Positions 1,916-33,400 of a DNA stretch of 43,359 bases are shown here, one piece after another. Source of the DNA: Mycoplasmataceae bacterium (GTDB lineage: Bacteria; Bacillota_I; Bacilli_A; Mycoplasmatales; Mycoplasmoidaceae). The notes under the pieces are model-generated. The model was not told the DNA's origin. It made no database searches and saw only the letters and a program-made list of their open reading frames with translations. The stretch's first letter is position 1. Each line of letters begins with the position of its first letter. A program made the position numbers and the translations under genes. Where the stretch lies: assembly GCA_031279765.1 (NCBI GenBank), contig JAITHU010000015.1:1-43359 (forward strand), given 5' to 3'.

Positions 1916-4640
<2,725 letters not shown>

Positions 4641-4644
4641 ATTT

Positions 4645-7600
4645 TTAATTTTTATCTTTAAAATTCTTAACTCAAGTTTTTCCTAATTGGTCATTAAATC
4701 TTCTATCGTACACAATAATTCCTTTATCATCTCCATAAATCGTATTAATGATTGTTGATAAAGCTTTATTTTGTGTAGAAGTATCAACAGCACATTGAAT
4801 TATCAATTGTTTGATTACATTTGCACCAAATTTTGTTTCTAAATTACTAATTATTTCATTTTCATCACCTTTTGAAACATCTTCGTAATTAATTTGCATA
4901 ATTGCTAAACGATCACCATTATGAGCTGATTGATCTTCATATATAACGTTAGGTTCACTAGGATTTTTTTCAACTGAAAAAATTTCCTTTACTCCGTTCG
5001 AAGAAACTTTATTAATACCTGTTAAATAATTCGTCATATCTCCAGTTGGAATGTTGTTATCGCTTGTGAAATTAGCTCATCATGTATTATTTTCTTCAGT
5101 TCCTGGAGAATTAGTAATAATATTAATAAAAATTTGTTTTTTCTCTGCTAAGCTTGGAAACGTTGAAGAAGTAGGATCGATAATAGACGTTGAACGATTA
5201 ATTAAATTATCTTGTGTTTGTCATTTGTTACCAAGTGCAGTAGAAAAATTTTTAGATAAAGCTTGTAAGCTATAAACATTTGTACATTTTGAAGCAATAT
5301 AATTAACCAACGTATTTGTTCCGTCATCGTTAGTAGCACTACTTCCACCTTGATAAACATTTCTTCAAGCTCCGATTCCAGAAGTTCCATCAGTATCTGT
5401 AGCACGATATTGATAAAGTGCACCAGCTAAATTAGTATCGTTTGGATTAGCTTTACGTCAATTATCAAATAATGCAGTAGTAACAGCTGATGGGAATGTA
5501 TTAACGCTTTTAGTTTGTAATCCTAAAAATCCAAAACCAGTAATTGTTGAACTAGCAACTGGCATTTCGCAAAAATGATAATGAGCAGTAGAAGAATCTA
5601 CATAAGAACCAACAGCTACTTGTGTACTTCCTGATTGAGGAGTAACATATGTACTATTAAAAGCATTCGCGTAATTTGTTACTCCACCATAAATATTATT
5701 AAATTCACTTGATGAACTAATAACATTTTTGAAGTTTTCGTTAGCGATTGTATTATCTTTTGCTAATCAAGCGATATATGCTGGTTCATAACTATTACCA
5801 ATTTTTTCTTTTAACCAAGAAATAAACTTTCCATAATTAATAGTTGATGCAGAACCATGAACATATTTAATTGATGCTAAAAATTTGTAATAATCAAATA
5901 ATTCAGAAGCAGTACCATTGTTTCAAGATATTTGTGTGTTGTTTTTTCTTTCTCATTCGTTTCATAAAACATTAACTAATTGATCAGATGTTAAAGCTCC
6001 ATTTGCGTTAATATTTGCTCCATATGTTAAAGAAGAAAGAGTTTGTGTTGAACTAATTATTTTATCTGTTAAAAATTGTGAAGCAATTTCTTTTTTATAA
6101 TCACTTAAAATATTATCAGTTTTATATTCATCACTTTCTAATCAATAATTTAATGCTTTATTTTTAACATCATTAGAAAAAGAAGCATCTTTTCCATATG
6201 TTGAAACTAAATAATTAATTGCTTGTGTTAGAACTGGAGAATTAGTTTTTATTAAAATGTTTTCGCTTCATGTACGTGTGTCATCTTTTGATACATCTGA
6301 AGCTAATTCAATATTAGAAAGTAAAGTGTCAGCGTTTGTTGAGATGGTATTTTGTAAATCATAAATAGAAATAGTTGTAGGACTAACAGAACCGGTAATG
6401 TATTTTGAAACAGTATTAGGGATTACTTTTGTAATATCGTAATACGAAAAATAATCATATTTAAAACTATCATTGAAATAATCAGGTGTTAATGATTGCC
6501 CGCTATTAGCAACAAACGGAAAACAAGCAGCTAAACCATTGTTATATATAAGTTTATTATTAGCTGTCGCTGAACCTCATAAAGCATTAGCAGTATGTGT
6601 TTCAGAAAATTTAAAAAGATTTTTATTCGCATCAGAATAATTCGTAACTGCTGTTTGCCAATAAAAAAGATTATTAATACTAGTAACTAGCGCAAAGAAA
6701 GTTTGTCAATTATTTTTAAAATTACTAATATCATCATTAATTGCAGGATTAAATATTTTATCAAACATGTTTCAAGATTGTGGATTATTAATTGCGTCGT
6801 TTGCAATAGATAATAAAACATCATTCATATTTTCAGTAAAGAAACTATTTAAATCTCCAGATTGTTTAGTAAAATCGAAACCTTTTCCTTCGTAAGGATC
6901 ATCTTTAGCATCTTGTAAACAACGTACTTTTAAAATTACATTTTCACGTTCTTGAGTTTTTGGTTGAGTATGAAATCCGCTACCATCAGTTGCGTTATAT
7001 GCAGCACTTAAATAACCAGCTCCATCTAAACCAATAACGTGAATTCCTGGGTTTTCTCTAATAAAAATGAAAGGCAAATTGCTAGAACTTGCTGTTTTTA
7101 ATTGAAAAGCTGGAACTTCCAAATAATATCCATTACGATATCAATCGGTTGGATTAAGATTATCATCATTATTAAAAATTTTTAATTTTTTTCCTAAATT
7201 TCCACCAAGATCAACTGATTCATAAATACTTGATAAATCAAACGAATTGTCACTAGATAAAGAAACACTAGCAATCGGATTAACACCAGATGTACCTGTA
7301 AATAAAAAATTCTTCATAATGTCTGCAGTTCATAACGAAGAAACACTATTAGGATTAATTAAACCTTTTGGTAAGGAAGTTGAACCGGAAGCGTTTGTAT
7401 ATGCATTCCATAAATCTGAAACTGATGAAGCGTATGTAACATCAAGTTTTGTAAAAGCATCAGATGCTAAATTAACTCTAAATAAACAAGAAGAATCATC
7501 AGTGTATGATGTTCTAACTCTAATTATTCCTGTACTAGTTGCATCGCCAGTTCATGCACCATAATAATTAGGAGTAGAACCGGGATCGAATCCATCGTTA

Positions 7601-14573: not shown

Positions 14574-14900
14574 ATGATTAATAGTAGATATATGCGTATT
14601 TTACTTTTTTTTGATTTACCAATAGAATCAGTTGAGGAAAAAAGAAACTATACTATTTTTAGAAAAAATTTATTTAAACTAGGTTTTATCATGATGCAAT
14701 ATTCCGTTTACCACAAATGCGTTAATGTTGCTACTAAAATTGAAAGAGAAGAAGAAAAAATAACAAAAATATTACCTCCATATGGTAATATTCGTGTTTT
14801 AACAGTTACTGAACATCAATATCAAAAAATGAAAATAATGATTGGTGGCAAAACGTTTAACGAACAAATAAACGAACAACCAAACTATATTAAAGTATAA
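14574..14900 (+). CDS. cas2: CRISPR-associated Cas2 (type II)
   Basis: A 108-residue Cas2 of the type II kind. The first beta strand RILLFFDLP carries the conserved Asp (D14). GFIMMQYSVYHK and the C-terminal strand VLTVTEHQYQKM match type II Cas2 proteins closely. Cas2 is the structural core of the Cas1-Cas2 spacer integrase. A second in-frame ATG at 14592 (MRILLFFD) is the more usual Cas2 N-terminus; the upstream ATG fits the promoter position. No cas1 or cas9 is found next to it; the neighbour upstream is a divergent PAP2-like gene. csn2 follows after 3 bp. Confidence 0.92.
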   Translation: MINSRYMRILLFFDLPIESVEEKRNYTIFRKNLFKLGFIMMQYSVYHKCVNVATKIEREEEKITKILPPYGNIRVLTVTEHQYQKMKIMIGGKTFNEQINEQPNYIKV

Positions 14901-14903
14901 ACT

Positions 14904-15584
14904 ATGGCACATATTAAATACCACGATAAAAGTCTAGGATTCAATTTAGAAGATATAAAATTCATTAAAGTAAAAGACATGTTTACTTTTTATCAAAAAT
15001 TATTATCTGAAGAAATAAAAATATATGATGAAACTAATTTTATTAGCAAACATAATCTTTGTATTTTGCCAAGTACAAAGATTAGTGATTTGTTTAATTT
15101 TTCTAAGATTAATGTTTTAGGCAAACATTTGATTGAATGAATAAATGACAAAAACATAAACTTAGCAAATGAAGAAATTAAAAATATAGTTTCACATTTA
15201 TCAACTTTATTTGATGGTGTAGAGTTTAACCAAGATTATGATAAATTAGCAATCGTTTCAAAATTCATTGATATTAATGAAAGAATTATCAATAAAAAAG
15301 ATTTTGTTTCATTAATCAACTTATTAGATGATAAAATGTACAATACCAAAATTTTATTATTTAATAGCGAATGAATAGATGAAGAAGTTATAAATTTATT
15401 AAACGAAAAAAATTTAAAGACAATTATTATTTTCAACGAAAGTAATAATCTGCTTGATATTTTAAAACAAAATAAAGAAAACATTATTGTGTTTAAAGAA
15501 AACAATTTTTCTTTTATTGATGTAAAAAGTGATATCCCAGATGAATACGATGATAATATTGAAAAAATTTTTATTAAGCTTTAA
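14904..15584 (+). CDS. csn2: CRISPR-associated Csn2 (type II-A)
   Basis: A 226-residue protein (Trp by TGA) in the position and size of Csn2, the ring-shaped DNA-end-binding adaptation protein of type II-A systems. Similarity is in pattern: an N-terminal small beta domain (LGFNLEDIKFIKVKD), a central helical region (HLSTLFDGVEFNQDYDKL), and a C-terminal Rossmann-like half with TKILLFNSEWIDEEVINLL and a following beta strand TIIIFNESNN. Csn2 sequences diverge strongly, so the assignment rests also on the place right after cas2. No repeat array follows; the next features are a tRNA promoter and tRNA-Pro. Confidence 0.8.
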
Positions 15585-15611
15585 TATTTAATCATTAAAA
15601 AATTAAAAAGT

Positions 15612-15668
15612 TATAATATATATAACACGATAAGATGTATGAGATTTTATCAGCATATGTATCGCGTT
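15612..15668 (+). promoter_or_regulatory. tRNA operon promoter and leader stem
   Basis: TATAAT at 15612-15617 puts the start near 15624. From there 15624-15632 can pair with 15660-15668 (8 of 9 pairs), enclosing a smaller GATAA/TTATC hairpin and ending 2 nt before tRNA-Pro. It is probably the 5' leader removed by RNase P. The rest of 15585-15670 holds no gene and no CRISPR repeat. Confidence 0.45.
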
Positions 15669-15670
15669 AA

Positions 15671-15747
15671 CGGGAAGTAGCTTAGCTTGGTAGAGCACTT
15701 GGTTTGGGACCAAGGGGTCGCAGGTACAAATCCTGTCTTCCCGACCA
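15671..15747 (+). tRNA. tRNA-Pro (TGG)
   Basis: A 77-nt cloverleaf with encoded CCA. The acceptor CGGGAAG pairs with CTTCCCG, the anticodon loop is TTTGGGA (anticodon TGG), and the T loop starts with a standard C-rich stem. First of a Pro-Met-Ile cluster. Confidence 0.93.
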
Positions 15748-15751
15748 TTAA

Positions 15752-15828
15752 GGCAGGATATCTCAGTTGGTTAGAGAACTCGGCTCATACCCGGGGTGTC
15801 GTGAGTTCAACTCTCACTCCTGCTACCA
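15752..15828 (+). tRNA. tRNA-Met (CAT), elongator type
   Basis: A 77-nt cloverleaf with CCA encoded and anticodon loop CTCATAC. The acceptor begins GGCAGGA and ends TCCTGCT, with the G1-U72 wobble also seen in Bacillus elongator tRNA-Met, and it lacks the initiator-type first-pair mismatch. I therefore call it elongator rather than initiator. Confidence 0.8.
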
Positions 15829-15833
15829 GGTTT

Positions 15834-15909
15834 GGAGCTTTAGCTCAATGGTTAGAGCCCCCGACTCATAATCGGTTGGTTGTAGGTTCGAGTCCTACAA
15901 GCTCCACCA
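15834..15909 (+). tRNA. tRNA-Ile (CAT, lysidine type)
   Basis: A 76-nt cloverleaf with encoded CCA; acceptor GGAGCTT/AAGCTCC, anticodon loop CTCATAA. The body resembles Bacillus tRNA-Ile2, whose C34 is changed to lysidine by TilS so that it reads AUA, a very common codon in this genome. The 105 bp that follow (15910-16014) hold no gene; they must carry the fic promoter. Confidence 0.82.
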
Positions 15910-16014
15910 TTTTATACGGATATTTAAAGTTAACTACTTTTGAACCGGAAATATAGCTAGTTAATAGTAAGAACTTAATAAAACTACAATTATTTTTTCA
16001 GAAAGCAATGAACA

Positions 16015-16758
16015 ATGAAAGAATTTAAAAATAAATTATTTATAAATGATGAATTAAATTCTACTTCCGATTTGTATTTTAAATTAAAAGCTGATTTTAC
16101 TTACCATTCAAGTGCAATTGAAAATTCTACCGTTACTAAAGATGATAACTTTGATGTTATCAATTTTCCAAGCAAAACAAATACAGAAACAATTGCAACT
16201 AAATATAAAGGCAAGTACAAACATGATGAAATTATTGAAAACTTTAATTGTGGAAATATGTTTGAATATATTCTTCAAACAATTAATAAACCTATCAACG
16301 AAAAAGAATTAAAAATTTGACATAGCATTTTAAAGAAAGGAACAGAATGAACCTCTAAATATACAAATTCAGTAGGAGATTACAAAAAAATTCCTAATTC
16401 AATTGGAAATGATATCAAAACACCACAACCATGAGAAATAAATAATTTAATGAAAAAGTTATTAAGTAAAAAAACAAAAACATTTGATGATATAGTTGAA
16501 TTTCACGCGAAGTTTGAATCTATTCATCCTTTTCTTGATGGCAATGGTAGGATTGGTAGAGGAATAATGTTTAAACAATGTTTACAAAATAATTTAACTC
16601 CAATTATAGTAAATAACGAAAGTAAAAAATTTTACTATGATGGATTAAAACATTATCAATTAAATGGCAAAATAGATTTGTTAAAAGATTTTTTTAAAGA
16701 ACAACAAGAATATTTTGAAAAAGAATATAAAAAATATTTAAATAGCGATGTTTTATAA
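16015..16758 (+). CDS. Fic-domain protein (predicted AMPylase, autoinhibited class)
   Basis: A 247-residue Fic protein. The catalytic motif HPFLDGNGRIGR starts at H171 and fits HxFx(D/E)GNGRxxR exactly, so transfer of a nucleotide monophosphate (usually AMP) to a protein hydroxyl is expected. SSAIEN at residues 32-37 fits the [S/T]xxxE[G/N] inhibitory motif and precedes the Fic fold, as in class II enzymes with an N-terminal inhibitory helix; E36 would block ATP gamma-phosphate. Trp is encoded by TGA. The gene sits between a tRNA cluster and an R-M pair, 17 bp before the methyltransferase ATG, and is probably cotranscribed with it. The target is unknown. Confidence 0.9.
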
Positions 16759-16775
16759 TAAAACTAACCATAGTC

Positions 16776-17569
16776 ATGAATAAGTTAATTAATAAATCTA
16801 TAAGAGAGAGAGAGAGAGAGATAATCGCATAATTATATGGGCGTTATATGATGACGCTGAATCTTCTTATAAAAAAGCGATAGAAAAATATTTTGATAGT
16901 GAATTTGTTGTTCATTGTTTTGGAATAAATGATATTATATTTTCTCCGAATAAAAATTATTTTTATCACAAGATAGATTTAAGTTTATCTAATTTAAATT
17001 TATTAAAACAATTAGAAAAAATTGCGAACGATTATGGAAAACCAAAAATTATTTTAGCTTCTCCTCCGTGCGAATCATGAAGTGGTGCTGATTGTGCTGG
17101 AAAAATGTTCAGATCAATTGATAAAAACGGAAATTGAAAAGTAATGAATAAAAAATATTACAATAAATATAACGCAAATTGTAATCCAGTTAAAAGAAGA
17201 TTCTTTTTTCAAAAAGAACAAGGAAGAATTTTAGGAGAATCTACTATCGGAGCAACAATTCAAATAATTGAATATTTTAAACCAATAATTTGAGTAATAG
17301 AAAATCCACAAACTTCTAAAAGTTGAGATTTTCAATTGCATCATCATGATTTCATTGGTGAAATGAATCGAACATATTATTCATCATATGATAATAACTT
17401 TTCATCAAAACCAACAATTTTCAAATCTAACATAAAATTAAATTTTTCTTCAAAAAAACAACCAGGAAATAAATTGCATATGGCTATAGGAAATTATTCT
17501 AGAAGAAGTGCAATTCCATTAACATTAATAAAGACTATTATCGAACAAATTAAACATAAAATATGTTAA
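16776..17569 (+). pseudogene. DNA methyltransferase, switched off by an (AG)9 tract (phase variable)
   Basis: A DNA methyltransferase split between two frames. The ATG at 16776 reads into (AG)9 and stops at 16830 after 18 residues. The enzyme body begins in another frame right after the tract (IIIWALYDDAESSYKK) and runs to 17569 with no start codon of its own before an in-frame TAA at 16793. Losing one AG unit, or gaining two, joins them into a protein of 263 residues. The body has ASPPCESWS and WVIENPQTSKSWDF, like the PC and EN motifs of C5-cytosine methyltransferases, but I leave the modified base open. Four Trp codons are TGA. The last 7 bp overlap the endonuclease gene. Confidence 0.8.
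16803..16820 (+). repeat. (AG)9 dinucleotide tract inside the methyltransferase 5' end
   Basis: Nine perfect AG units 27 bp after the ATG. Slipped-strand changes of one unit shift the frame by two bases; n = 8 or 11 gives an open gene, n = 9 (seen) or 10 does not. Confidence 0.95.
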
Positions 17570-18843
17570 CAAAAGATAGGTTATTGGAAAAAATAAACGA
17601 TATTATTCATGCATATATCAAAAACGAATGTAAGACATGAAATATAGGTACTTCGTTTACAAATACATGAATTAAATTCGCAAAAGATCTTAAAAAAATA
17701 ACTTATGAAGAATTAGAAAAAGCTGAATGTATAGACATTGTATTTGTAAAAGAAGTTGAAGGAACCAAAAAAAGTAAAAAACCAGAAGCTAGATATAAAG
17801 TACAAATTTTAAATAACGATATTAATTGTTGAAGAGATAAAGAACCAAAATCATTAGCAGCTATAAGACAAATGTTACAAGTCGGTGATGCGTTTGGTTT
17901 TGTTTCGTATAATGGTTGTATTAAAAGTGATAGTGCTTTTCCATTATTGAAAAATATTAGTGAATTATTTATAGATAATTTCGAAAATAATTTACATAAT
18001 TTGTTATATAAAGTAATGTGCAAAGCTTTTACTTCAAAAAATAAGTGGGTTAAAAATTTAGGATTCACAATTTTTTTGACATTTTTATATTCAAATAATA
18101 TATGAGATATTGACAAAAATTGTCAAATTGCAAAATGAGTTGCAAAAAGAACACCAAGTAAAGGAACGGAAGAAAATTTAAAATATATTATGTTTGGAAG
18201 TGAACAATATAAAAAACATATCGAAGAAACATATAAAGATACTTATAAAAATTCTTGTAAAATATTAAAAAATAATTTTAATTTTGAGTACTTGATAAAT
18301 AAATTATGAAAAAATTGTAAAGAAAATAATAATGAAGCACTTGAATTATTATTATCAAAAGAAGAAAGTGAATTTGTAGAACAAGAAAATATATTCAGCA
18401 ATATAAGTATAAAAATTAAAAACGAACGAAGTAAATTAAGAGAAAATATTATTAAAAATCGTTGGAAAGATGATCCTAATAACGATTTAGATATTGAAAA
18501 AAAATGAAAGATTATTAATTGTGATGCTGCACATATCTTTGATGTATATAAAATACAAAGTGAAGCAAAAAGATGTATATATAAAGAACATAAAAAACTA
18601 GCTGAATTAGATTATCTTGTTGGATATGCATCGAATATTAATAATGGATTGATTTTAAAAAAAGATGTACACAGCTTATTAGATAATGATGTATTACGTA
18701 TCACACACTATGGTGAAATTATTTTCGATAAAGAACACAAAGAGGAAGTTGAAGAAGCATTCGGTTGCGAAATAAAAGATAAAATTTTTATTAAAAAATC
18801 TATATTAGATAATGGTATGATTGATTTTATAAAAAAAAGATAA
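17563..18843 (+). CDS. HNH endonuclease, restriction partner of the methyltransferase
   Basis: A 426-residue protein with an unrecognised N-terminal and middle region and a C-terminal HNH nuclease domain. NCDAAHIF (H324), NNGLILKK (N361) and DVHSLLDND (H370) match the HNH_2 pattern AH-I ... NGL-L ... H-LFD. Its start overlaps the end of the methyltransferase by 7 bp, so the pair looks like a type II restriction-modification system with coupled translation. Seven of nine Trp codons are TGA, so the gene has long resided in mollicutes. The frame is intact even though the methyltransferase reads as off. Recognition sequence is unknown. Confidence 0.78.
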
Positions 18844-19590: not shown

Positions 19591-19626
19591 AAAAGACTCA
19601 ATCCTAAAAAAAGGATTGAGTCTTTT
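19591..19626 (-). terminator. Intrinsic terminator of the rRNA operon
   Basis: A perfect 15-bp inverted repeat (19591-19605 against 19612-19626, core GACTCAATCCT/AGGATTGAGTC) with a 6-nt loop and a T-run on either strand. It lies 4 bp downstream of 5S rRNA. Confidence 0.92.
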
Positions 19627-19629
19627 TTT

Positions 19630-19736
19630 GCGTGGCATAACCTATTCTTGCGTTAACTACCTTCGGCCCAATAGTGCTTGACTTCTGTGTTCGGGATGGG
19701 AACAGGTATATCCACTATTAGTATGAACACCACACT
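19630..19736 (-). rRNA. rrf: 5S ribosomal RNA
   Basis: About 107 nt with the conserved CCCATCCCGAACACAGAAGTCAAGC and GGCCGAAGGTAGTT segments on the minus strand. The 5' and 3' ends pair (GTGTGGT.. with ..GCCACGC), so the ends are known to within a few bases. It is the last gene of the operon. Confidence 0.93.
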
Positions 19737-19821
19737 TGACATCGTTCGATGCAATTTTATAAATCTAACAATCAATTAAATCCGTATTGAATACAAATAA
19801 ATAATGATAACAATATTTAAA

Positions 19822-22733
<2,912 letters not shown>

Positions 22734-22870
22734 ATATCTATCATTTATTTAGATTGTTAAACTATTTCTAGCTTTTGTTAATCTCTTGGTATTTTTTAGG
22801 TTTGATTTTTATTTACTAACGTTTATTTTTACAAACAAACGTCAAGCAAAAAGATTGTTGATTTATAAAA

Positions 22871-22882
22871 TTTTCAAAGAAC
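22871..22882 (-). promoter_or_regulatory. boxA-like antitermination element before 23S
   Basis: GTTCTTTGAAAA on the minus strand, identical to the copy before 16S at 24547-24558. In Firmicutes this sequence recruits the NusB/NusE antitermination complex to rRNA transcripts. Confidence 0.65.
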
Positions 22883-22908
22883 GATCCTGAGAAGATAAAA
22901 ATCCTCTC

Positions 22909-22925
22909 AAAACTAAATAGAATCC
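22909..22925 (-). other. 16S processing stem, 3' half
   Basis: 17 nt perfectly complementary to 24534-24550, so the precursor can form a stem that loops out 16S, the usual RNase III substrate. Confidence 0.75.
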
Positions 22926-23017
22926 GACCATATAAAAAATAAATTTAGGTTGATAATTATTTATATGGATTTTAATGTGTACACGAATTTCATTCGTGTT
23001 ATTTTTTTAAACTCCGA

Positions 23018-24530
<1,513 letters not shown>

Positions 24531-24533
24531 GAC

Positions 24534-24550
24534 GGATTCTATTTAGTTTT
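24534..24550 (-). other. 16S processing stem, 5' half
   Basis: Pairs over all 17 nt with 22909-22925. The adjoining boxA (24547-24558) overlaps its upstream end. Confidence 0.75.
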
Positions 24551-24558
24551 CAAAGAAC
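24547..24558 (-). promoter_or_regulatory. boxA-like antitermination element before 16S
   Basis: GTTCTTTGAAAA on the minus strand, in the rRNA leader; identical to the copy before 23S. Confidence 0.65.
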
Positions 24559-24588
24559 TTTCGTAATAAAATGAATTATTACAATTTA

Positions 24589-24617
24589 ATTATAATTAAA
24601 TTAACAAAAAAATACAA
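24589..24617 (-). promoter_or_regulatory. rRNA operon promoter
   Basis: -35 TTGTAT (24612-24617), 17-bp spacer, -10 TATAAT (24589-24594). The start is expected near 24582, giving a leader of about 50 nt with boxA and the processing stem. Confidence 0.7.
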
Positions 24618-30491: not shown

Positions 30492-33400
30492 TTATTCGTT
30501 TATTTCCTCTAAAAAAGTAGTATTTTTTTCTTGTTGATCATTACTAGCGTTTTCATCATTTTCATCATCAATATCAATATCATTAGTATATTTGTTAATA
30601 TCAACAATATCACCATTTTCTAATTCAGCAGACATTGACAAACATAAACCTTGTAATTGTTTTGTTAATAATTTAAATGATTCAGGCATTCCTGGTAATG
30701 GTAATTTTTTTCCTCTAATAATTGAGCGAATTAATTTTTCTCTTCCATCAATATCGTCAGATTTTATTGTAAGCATTTCTTGAAGAGTATGAGCAACACC
30801 GTATGCTTCAAGAGCTCAAACTTCCATTTCACCAACTTTTTGACCACCATTTTGTCGTTTTCCACCTAATGGTTGTTGAGTAATTTTTGAATATGGTCCA
30901 GTAGCTCTTGCATGAATTTTATCTTCAACCATATGGTTAAGTTTAAGAATATTCATAGTTCCAACAGTAATTTCACCATTAAAATATTCTCCAGTTCTAC
31001 CATCTATTAATTTATATTTTCCATATTTTTTTTCTGGTTCCATTCCAGCTTCTTGCATTGTCGAAAATACATCATTACTATTAGCTCCACTAAAAACTGG
31101 GTTAGCAACTTTATAATTTAAATCTTCATACGTTAAACCAACATTATTTAAAATAATATTCAAATCTAATTCATCAATTTCTTTGTCTCCTTGTTCTTTC
31201 AAATAGCGAGCAACAAATTTTTTAAGTGATTCAACTTTTTCAACACTAATACCAAATAGTAATGATATTTCTTTGACATCAATTTTGTTAGCGTTAATAA
31301 ATTCTATCATTTTTTTCTTAGCGATTTCACGCATTGCCATCGCTAAATTAACCTCATAAATTTGTCCGATATTCATACGAGAAGGAACACCTTGCGGATT
31401 CAAACAAATATCGATTGGTGTACCATCTTCTAAATAAGGCATGTCTTCTTCCGGTAACACAATCGAAATAATACCTTTATTTCCGTGACATCCAGCAAGT
31501 TTATCACCAACTTGTATTTTTCTTTTTTGAACAATAAAAATTTTTATTTTTTCAATAACATCATCATCCATCGTACTAGATCCGTTAACCGCACTAAATC
31601 GTTGAACTCTAATAACAATCCCTCCACCTCCGTGTGGAACTCTTAACGAAGCATCTTTAAAATTTTTTGATTTATTTCCAAAAATTGCTTGCAATAATTT
31701 TTCTTCAGCGGAATAATCAACTTGACCTCTTGGCAAAATTTTTCCAACAAGAATATCACCTTCTTCAACATAACTACCAACTAATACTATACCATCTTCA
31801 TCTAAACAACTTTTTGCATCTTCAGAAACATTCGGAATATCCCTAGTAATTTCTTCATCACCGTTCTTTGTTCGCATACATTGAATAATGTGTTCTTCAA
31901 TAGTTAAAGAAGTAAAAACTTCATCTTTAACAAGACGTTCAGAAATAACGATCGCATCATCCATGTTAAAACCATCTCACGTTGTAAAAGCAATTAATGG
32001 GTTTCTTCCTAATGCTAATTCACCATTTTGTGTTGCAGGACCATCAGCGATAATTTCATCTTTAACAACTTTTTGTCCAACATTAACAATTGGTATTTGA
32101 TTTACAGAAGTATTTTGATTAGAACGACGATATTTAATTAATTTATAAGTTGTTTTTTTATCATTTTTATTAGCAATAACAATCTTATTAGCATCAACAA
32201 AAATTACTTCTCCATCTTCTTCGGCAGTTACGGTAACTCCAGAGTCTTTAGCAATTTTATATTCGCTACCAGAACCAATAGTTGCTGCGATTGGTTTTAC
32301 TAACGGAACAGCTTGTCGTTGCATATTAGAAGCATACATTGTTCGCACACCATCATCAGAACCAATAAACGGAATTTGACCAGTAGAAACAGATAAAACT
32401 TGTCTAGGTGAAACATCTGCATAATGTACACCAGATGGAGATAACATAATTTCTTCACCACGATAACGAGCAACAACTTGTTCATCTGTTATCTTATTTT
32501 TAGCATCAACATTTACTGTTGCTCCACAAATCGCATGTTCTTCTTCTTTTAATGGTGTTAATCATTCAATTTCATTGGTAATAACACCGTTAACAACTTT
32601 TTTATAAGGAGCAACAACAAAACCATTATCATCAACTTTTGCAAAAGCTGCTAACGACATGATTAAACCAATGTTTTGTCCTTCTGGTGTTTCTGTAGGA
32701 CAAATACGACTATAATACGAAGAATGAATATCACGAATATCAAGATTAGGATCCTCACGTGAAACTCCACCATCACCTAGCAAAGAAATTTTACGTTTAT
32801 TAGATAAAATTGATAATGGGTTTTGTTGATCAGCGAATTGTGTTAATTGGTATGTGTTAAAAAAACTTTTAACAACTAATTGAAAAGCTTTTGTGTTAAC
32901 AACTGATCTTAAAGTAGTTTTTGCTTCAATTTTTGCTTTATTTTCATCGTTAGCTGTTCCAATAGATAATGAAGCAAGTTTTTCTTTAATGTATTTTTCA
33001 ACACGTGCCATTCCAATAAAAAGTTTGCTTTTTAATTGATCGCAAATTAAACGAAATCTTTTGTTTCCTAAGTGTTCTTTATCATCATATGTACCAATTT
33101 CATAATTTAAACCAATAGTATAAGAAATTGCAGAAATAAAATCAGCTAACGTTAATGTTGTAAGTGTGTTAGTTGGAAGAACTCCAATAATAGGAACAAC
33201 ATCTGTTTGTAACTCGTTATCAGCATAAACTAAAATTTTCTCAACTTTTTTGCATTTTTTTATAAATTTTGACGTATTAACAATTTCAATTTCTTCCGCT
33301 GGAAAAATAAGTTTATCGGATTCGATGTTACTTTTAATGATATCTAATTCTTCTTTTAAAATTAATTGACCAGTACTAAAAAGTTTTTTACCATTTACTA

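Follow-up and report, generated by a model that had tools for sequence, protein, structure and literature searches.

In Haemophilus and Neisseria, the modA and modB phasevarions use slipped-strand changes in tetra- and pentanucleotide repeats to switch type III adenine methyltransferases on and off, and this switching has been shown to affect gene expression. The type III mod gene for M.MmyCI of Mycoplasma mycoides subsp. capri carries a dinucleotide tract that is off as (AG)12 and on as (AG)10, with activity only at (AG)10 (PMC3498834). Excerpts of a report on M. agalactiae describe measured length variation in a (GA)n tract of mod and in a poly-G tract of a CpG methyltransferase; the same excerpts assign poly(GA) to the CpG methyltransferases of M. 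pulmonis and M. crocodyli and cite AG repeats in hsdS of other mycoplasmas (PMC9465063). In Candidatus Mycoplasma girerdii, as set out in part of the corresponding report, dinucleotide variants occur at read level and both type III methyltransferases are out of frame in the assembly (PMC5476646). The idea of (AG)n-switched methyltransferases in mycoplasmas is already known, and the initial annotation of the locus described here, which put the design forward for a mollicute, was preceded by these published switches (PMC3498834, PMC9465063).

The locus lies in the window, our term for the whole 43,359-nt stretch of DNA analysed, which corresponds to the complete contig C46 in a draft genome of 613 kb and 48 contigs. 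An AG tract begins 27 nt 3' of ATG 16776, and its last unit is followed by one more A at 16821 (Table 1). At n = 9, the consensus count in this fragmented, 83% complete assembly, the ATG frame yields MNKLINKSIREREREIIA and is ended by TAA. Behind the tract, the methyltransferase body continues intact for 248 codons to a stop codon at 17567-17569, with no TAA or TAG in its own frame compared with 20 and 21 in the two other frames and a mean of 19 in shuffled bodies of equal size (TGA encodes Trp in this genome). The earliest in-frame ATG of the body, at 17105, stands behind the PPC motif, so the whole enzyme cannot start there. The frames of ATG 16776 and of the body differ by an offset of 2, and n = 8 or n = 11 would therefore join them. 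The sequence thus bears out what had been annotated about the start codon, the nine AG units 27 nt further on, the 18-residue product and the intact body without a usable start, and the unit counts said to restore the frame are arithmetically correct. The tract is not a product of chance, since dinucleotide-preserving shuffles give an expectation of 0.02 occurrences of AGAGAGAGAG in the window and runs of at least five AG units occupy just three places in the 613-kb assembly.

Table 1 Features of the switch locus and its surroundings (window coordinates).
Feature	Position	Strand	Remark
Fic-domain protein	16015..16758	+	directly upstream of ATG 16776, 17-nt gap
Short frame with start codon	16776..16832	+	18 residues, translated at n = 9
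Methyltransferase body frame, phrog_2882, predicted C5-methyltransferase type	16796..17569	+	conserved part from W at 16838
(AG)9 dinucleotide tract	16803..16820	+	proposed switch
PPCESW, motif IV	17063..17080	+	expected catalytic Cys codon 17069-17071; invariant in aligned relatives; also in M.HaeIII 1dct
ENP	17300..17308	+	in position of C5 methyltransferase motif VI ENV
Putative HNH restriction endonuclease	17563..18843	+	ATG overlaps methyltransferase stop by 7 nt

We assigned the body by profile, motif and predicted fold. It matches PHROG family 2882, 'DNA methyltransferase', at 2.6e-54, and all of its 32 aligned relatives match this family too. The Pfam C-5 cytosine methylase profile (PF00145) is matched by 28 of these 32 and is not reached by the window protein itself in a Pfam profile search. 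An AlphaFold2 model (mean pLDDT 84.6) retrieved the C5 methyltransferases DNMT3B and DNMT3A as top Foldseek matches among solved structures, with E-values of 1.7e-6 to 1e-4 and a modest TM of about 0.45; a sequence search of solved structures returned solely the PPC motif of M.HaeIII (1dct, E 0.035). A heparinase match in Pfam fell under the cut-off and was judged to be chance. The closest named relative, with 60% identity over 95%, is MarMP, a 'putative C5 methylase' of Mycoplasma phage MAV1 (NC_001942), which differs from the window enzyme in having a plain ATG start and no tract. Streptococcal phages also carry relatives annotated 'putative C5 methylase', and a scan of viral contigs revealed no close relatives. 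Together, these matches identify the body as a predicted C5-type DNA methyltransferase of the phrog_2882 family that would modify cytosine. The annotated function as a DNA methyltransferase stands, with the correction that family, motifs and fold indicate a C5-type rather than a mod-type adenine enzyme.

The methyltransferase gene overlaps that of a putative HNH endonuclease, and the pair therefore has the makings of a type II-like restriction-modification cassette with putative activities. The second gene resembles the NCBIfam family MAG4270, 'putative restriction endonuclease' (7.4e-8), and weakly Pfam HNH_2, both under the cut-off, and searching solved structures with its sequence gave no useful match. 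Nine aligned relatives all retain H324, N361 and H370, as expected for HNH. The gene that follows MarMP in MAV1, MarRP, was considered as a further relative and set aside because the similarity was not significant. Endonuclease homologues also lie downstream of the methyltransferase in other mollicute copies, L090 included, with starts about -13 to +6 nt from the methyltransferase stop. This layout suggests translational coupling, by which the endonuclease would be lowered too when the methyltransferase is off, so that the switch probably acts on the whole cassette and not on the methyltransferase alone.

No Fic relative lies beside the other copies and their upstream genes are unrelated, which suggests that the methyltransferase and endonuclease genes move together as a pair. 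By the same gene context, we take the Fic gene, which adjoins the window copy only, to lie next to the cassette and not to belong to it. Within window positions 14574-18843, a Cas2 gene, a tRNA-Pro/Met/Met cluster, the Fic gene (PADLOC PDC-S04 candidate defence family) and the cassette are contiguous, an arrangement like a small defence island. Further on, 5 kb without a substantial ORF (19600-24600) is probably an rRNA operon.

Set against the described systems, the locus combines familiar and differing traits. It shares the proposed slipped-strand on/off design with modA and modB but differs in repeat type and enzyme class. Like M.MmyCI, it has an AG tract in the coding region and a methyltransferase gene followed by an overlapping endonuclease gene; M.MmyCI, however, is a type III adenine enzyme (TGAG) with its tract about 320 nt in, whereas the window enzyme is of C5 type and has its tract at codon 10 (PMC3498834). 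The CpG methyltransferases of M. agalactiae, M. pulmonis and M. crocodyli are likewise mollicute C5 enzymes behind short-repeat switches, of GA in two species, but their tracts lie mid-gene, just 5' of the dcm domain, instead of at the gene start; they also belong to a different C5 branch, given that the window protein does not reach PF00145, and the excerpts of the report make no mention of a coupled HNH endonuclease (PMC9465063). Candidatus M. girerdii resembles the window genome as an uncultured mollicute with dinucleotide tracts in restriction-modification genes, although the tract genes named in that part of the report encode type III methyltransferases, hsdS and BspA-like proteins, with no mention of the MarMP-like family (PMC5476646).

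We scanned the genomes of relatives, comprising uncultured Mycoplasmataceae and their neighbours, for orthologues. Those with 62-66% identity carry an AG tract in the same position at other lengths: n = 10 in L088/L010 and in L092/L011, n = 12 in L096/L012 and n = 6 in L095/L013, a comparison between species and not within one. The DNA upstream of these tract-bearing copies is unrelated. In L096, (AG)12 is in frame from the gene's own ATG, and the window gene, L088, L092 and L095 are out of frame. Other copies depart from the AG pattern: L089 has (CA)8 where the others have AG, and L093 has (AG)4, both in frame; L090 and L097 are in frame without a tract; L091 has neither a tract nor a clear start; and L094 is cut by a contig end. 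A tree of the mollicute copies lacks the resolution needed for counting how often tracts were gained or lost. Differences from L088 at codon positions 1, 2 and 3 amount to 0.26, 0.20 and 0.49, with similar values for the others. Because divergence is biased to third positions and the other frames hold many stops, the body is under purifying selection on its product, even though several assemblies show the gene off. The initial annotation had called this a phase-variable methyltransferase in the off state. The orthologous tracts, the same repeat at other lengths with one in frame, strengthen that claim, and it is the best-supported reading of this assembly.

Repeats of this kind also mark other methyltransferase genes of the window genome. 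Its three runs of at least five AG units each sit at the 5' end of a methyltransferase, namely the phrog_2882 gene of the window, an hsdM on C8 (N6_Mtase, 1.5e-114) and, at the end of C14, a type III-like mod (N6_N4_Mtase, 2.7e-33), and at none of the three is there an in-frame ATG, GTG or TTG ahead of the tract. A second phrog_2882 enzyme at C14:32487 (1.2e-26; L025 1490-2406, equivalent to G000:C14 about 32476-33392) has a G7 run within motif I that breaks the ATG frame, and adjoins an McrB-like ATPase followed by a restriction-endonuclease-like gene. The methyltransferase at C14:23708, the fifth, lacks a tract. Of the five methyltransferases, which were found by three Pfam searches and one protein search, four thus follow a repeat, each of them assembled out of frame. 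As a control count, (AC)7 tracts are absent from the window genome and numerous in some sister species; parts of the genus are thus rich in dinucleotide tracts generally, and AG is not special. The C8 locus (L027, G000:C8, minus strand, repeats at 3738-3745 and 5921-5938) is a type I system. Its hsdM, assembled in the off state, has (AG)9 at the 5' end, and its hsdS contains the single G8 of the genome, between the two specificity halves.

We consider it highly probable that the locus is a phase-variable type II-like restriction-modification cassette whose coupled methyltransferase and endonuclease are turned on and off through AG slippage. Slipped-strand mispairing during replication would alter the number of AG units just 3' of the start codon within a population. 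At n = 9 the ribosome would halt after 18 codons, whereas in the in-frame class a run of RERERE... would be read through into the C5-type methyltransferase. Translation of the HNH endonuclease is probably coupled to that of the methyltransferase, so that both activities would go on and off jointly; lowering the endonuclease as the methyltransferase goes off would avoid self-cleavage upon lost modification. The population would then be a mix of cells in which this modification and restriction are present and cells that lack both. Its benefit may be bet-hedging between phage restriction and DNA uptake, possibly with expression changes too. A phasevarion-type switch of gene expression fits no better than on/off restriction directed at phage or incoming DNA.

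Several other explanations compete with this reading. Programmed ribosomal frameshifting or RNA polymerase slippage on the AG run could join the frames and provide a constant low level of protein. The window gene, L088, L092 and L095 are all shifted the same way relative to the ATG frame, as random switching would have it 1 time in 8, and this identical offset in four out-of-frame AG orthologues speaks for such a mechanism. We nonetheless find it very unlikely: tract lengths vary among species, L096 with (AG)12, L089 with (CA)8 and L093 with (AG)4 are in frame as they stand, as are L090 and L097, which lack a tract, and other AG-tract methyltransferases of the genus (L028, L056, L071, L073) are off in the other frame. 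An assembly error, with a true length that is in frame and a gene that is constitutively on, is even less likely. The draft is fragmented and short tracts are prone to error, yet three independent sister assemblies also show out-of-frame lengths, and in the window genome all three AG tracts and the G7 tract are out of frame; moreover, a true in-frame length would still mean a long, unstable tract.

The two other readings are less credible again. That the methyltransferase is a decaying pseudogene with the frame break as a fixed mutation is suggested by its being out of frame in the assembly, but 248 codons free of any further lesion, where about 19 chance stops would be expected, the third-position bias of its divergence and the intact overlapping endonuclease make this extremely improbable. 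Just as improbable is a role for the AG run as a ribosome-binding site, with translation from an unusual start codon (ATT or ATA) behind it. The run is AG-rich and the codons ATA ATT ATA lie immediately 5' of the conserved body, but in L092 the codons from tract to body (ACG AGT TAT GTA GTT TGA) include none that resembles a start, and the tracts of L096 and L089 each place an ATG in frame.

Beyond the mollicutes, runs of single nucleotides occur in distant members of the family. Streptococcal members (30-35% identity) have a G run near codon 25, found as G7, G8, G10 and G11; L123 and L128 are out of frame, and L119 (G11) is in frame with one additional Gly. In L116 (Erysipelotrichaceae), a C8 run coincides with a frame break 5' of PPC (L116 position 4001), and in Lactobacillaceae and Aerococcaceae members G7 or G8 is located further into the gene. 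A G run coding for Gly-Gly in a single gene can arise by chance; more telling is that lengths in frame and lengths out of frame both occur. Taking these copies together with those of the mollicutes, the balance tips slightly towards the MarMP-like (phrog_2882) family being a recurrent target of phase switches, with (AG)n, (CA)n, poly-G and poly-C gained at different places in mollicutes, streptococci and an Erysipelotrichaceae member, and towards the four repeat-borne methyltransferases of the window genome giving up to 16 methylation states per clone. An open-access search found no literature on switching of MarMP-like enzymes, a result short of proof of absence; three points look newly described, namely the family to which the enzyme belongs, its gene's overlap with that of an HNH endonuclease, and the gain, more than once, of different repeat switches. 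With this locus, the range of methyltransferases switched by repeats would come to include a phage-related family of C5 enzymes and reach an uncultured genus of mollicutes, and one enzyme with several unrelated repeat types could serve as a natural set for asking why restriction-modification genes keep gaining switches.

Finally, we surveyed AG tracts across the genus, searching 36 genomes and examining 117 distinct places with at least seven AG units. Tracts read in the AG sense occur in or just ahead of the ORF of 29 genes, which include 19 firm methyltransferases or HsdS proteins, 5 more that are probable and 5 that are neither. Many further AG tracts are located outside any ORF, and those with a CT reading often fall in signal peptides that resemble lipoprotein ones, chiefly in two species; more than one kind of contingency gene is therefore marked by such tracts. 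The CT reading within lipoprotein-like signal peptides (LSLSLS...), seen in G008 and certain other species (L036, L043, L064, L084, L154, L155, L172, L174, L175 and others), suggests repeat-switched surface proteins. Many of the non-ORF tracts belong to L129-L153 (G020, G023 and G024), where n reaches 21 and the flanking words are similar; these are possibly promoter or terminator elements. AG tracts also accompany PAPS-reductase-domain genes with weak BrxP matches in L156 (G008) and L165 (G033), the tract of L165 being 5'-terminal and out of frame.
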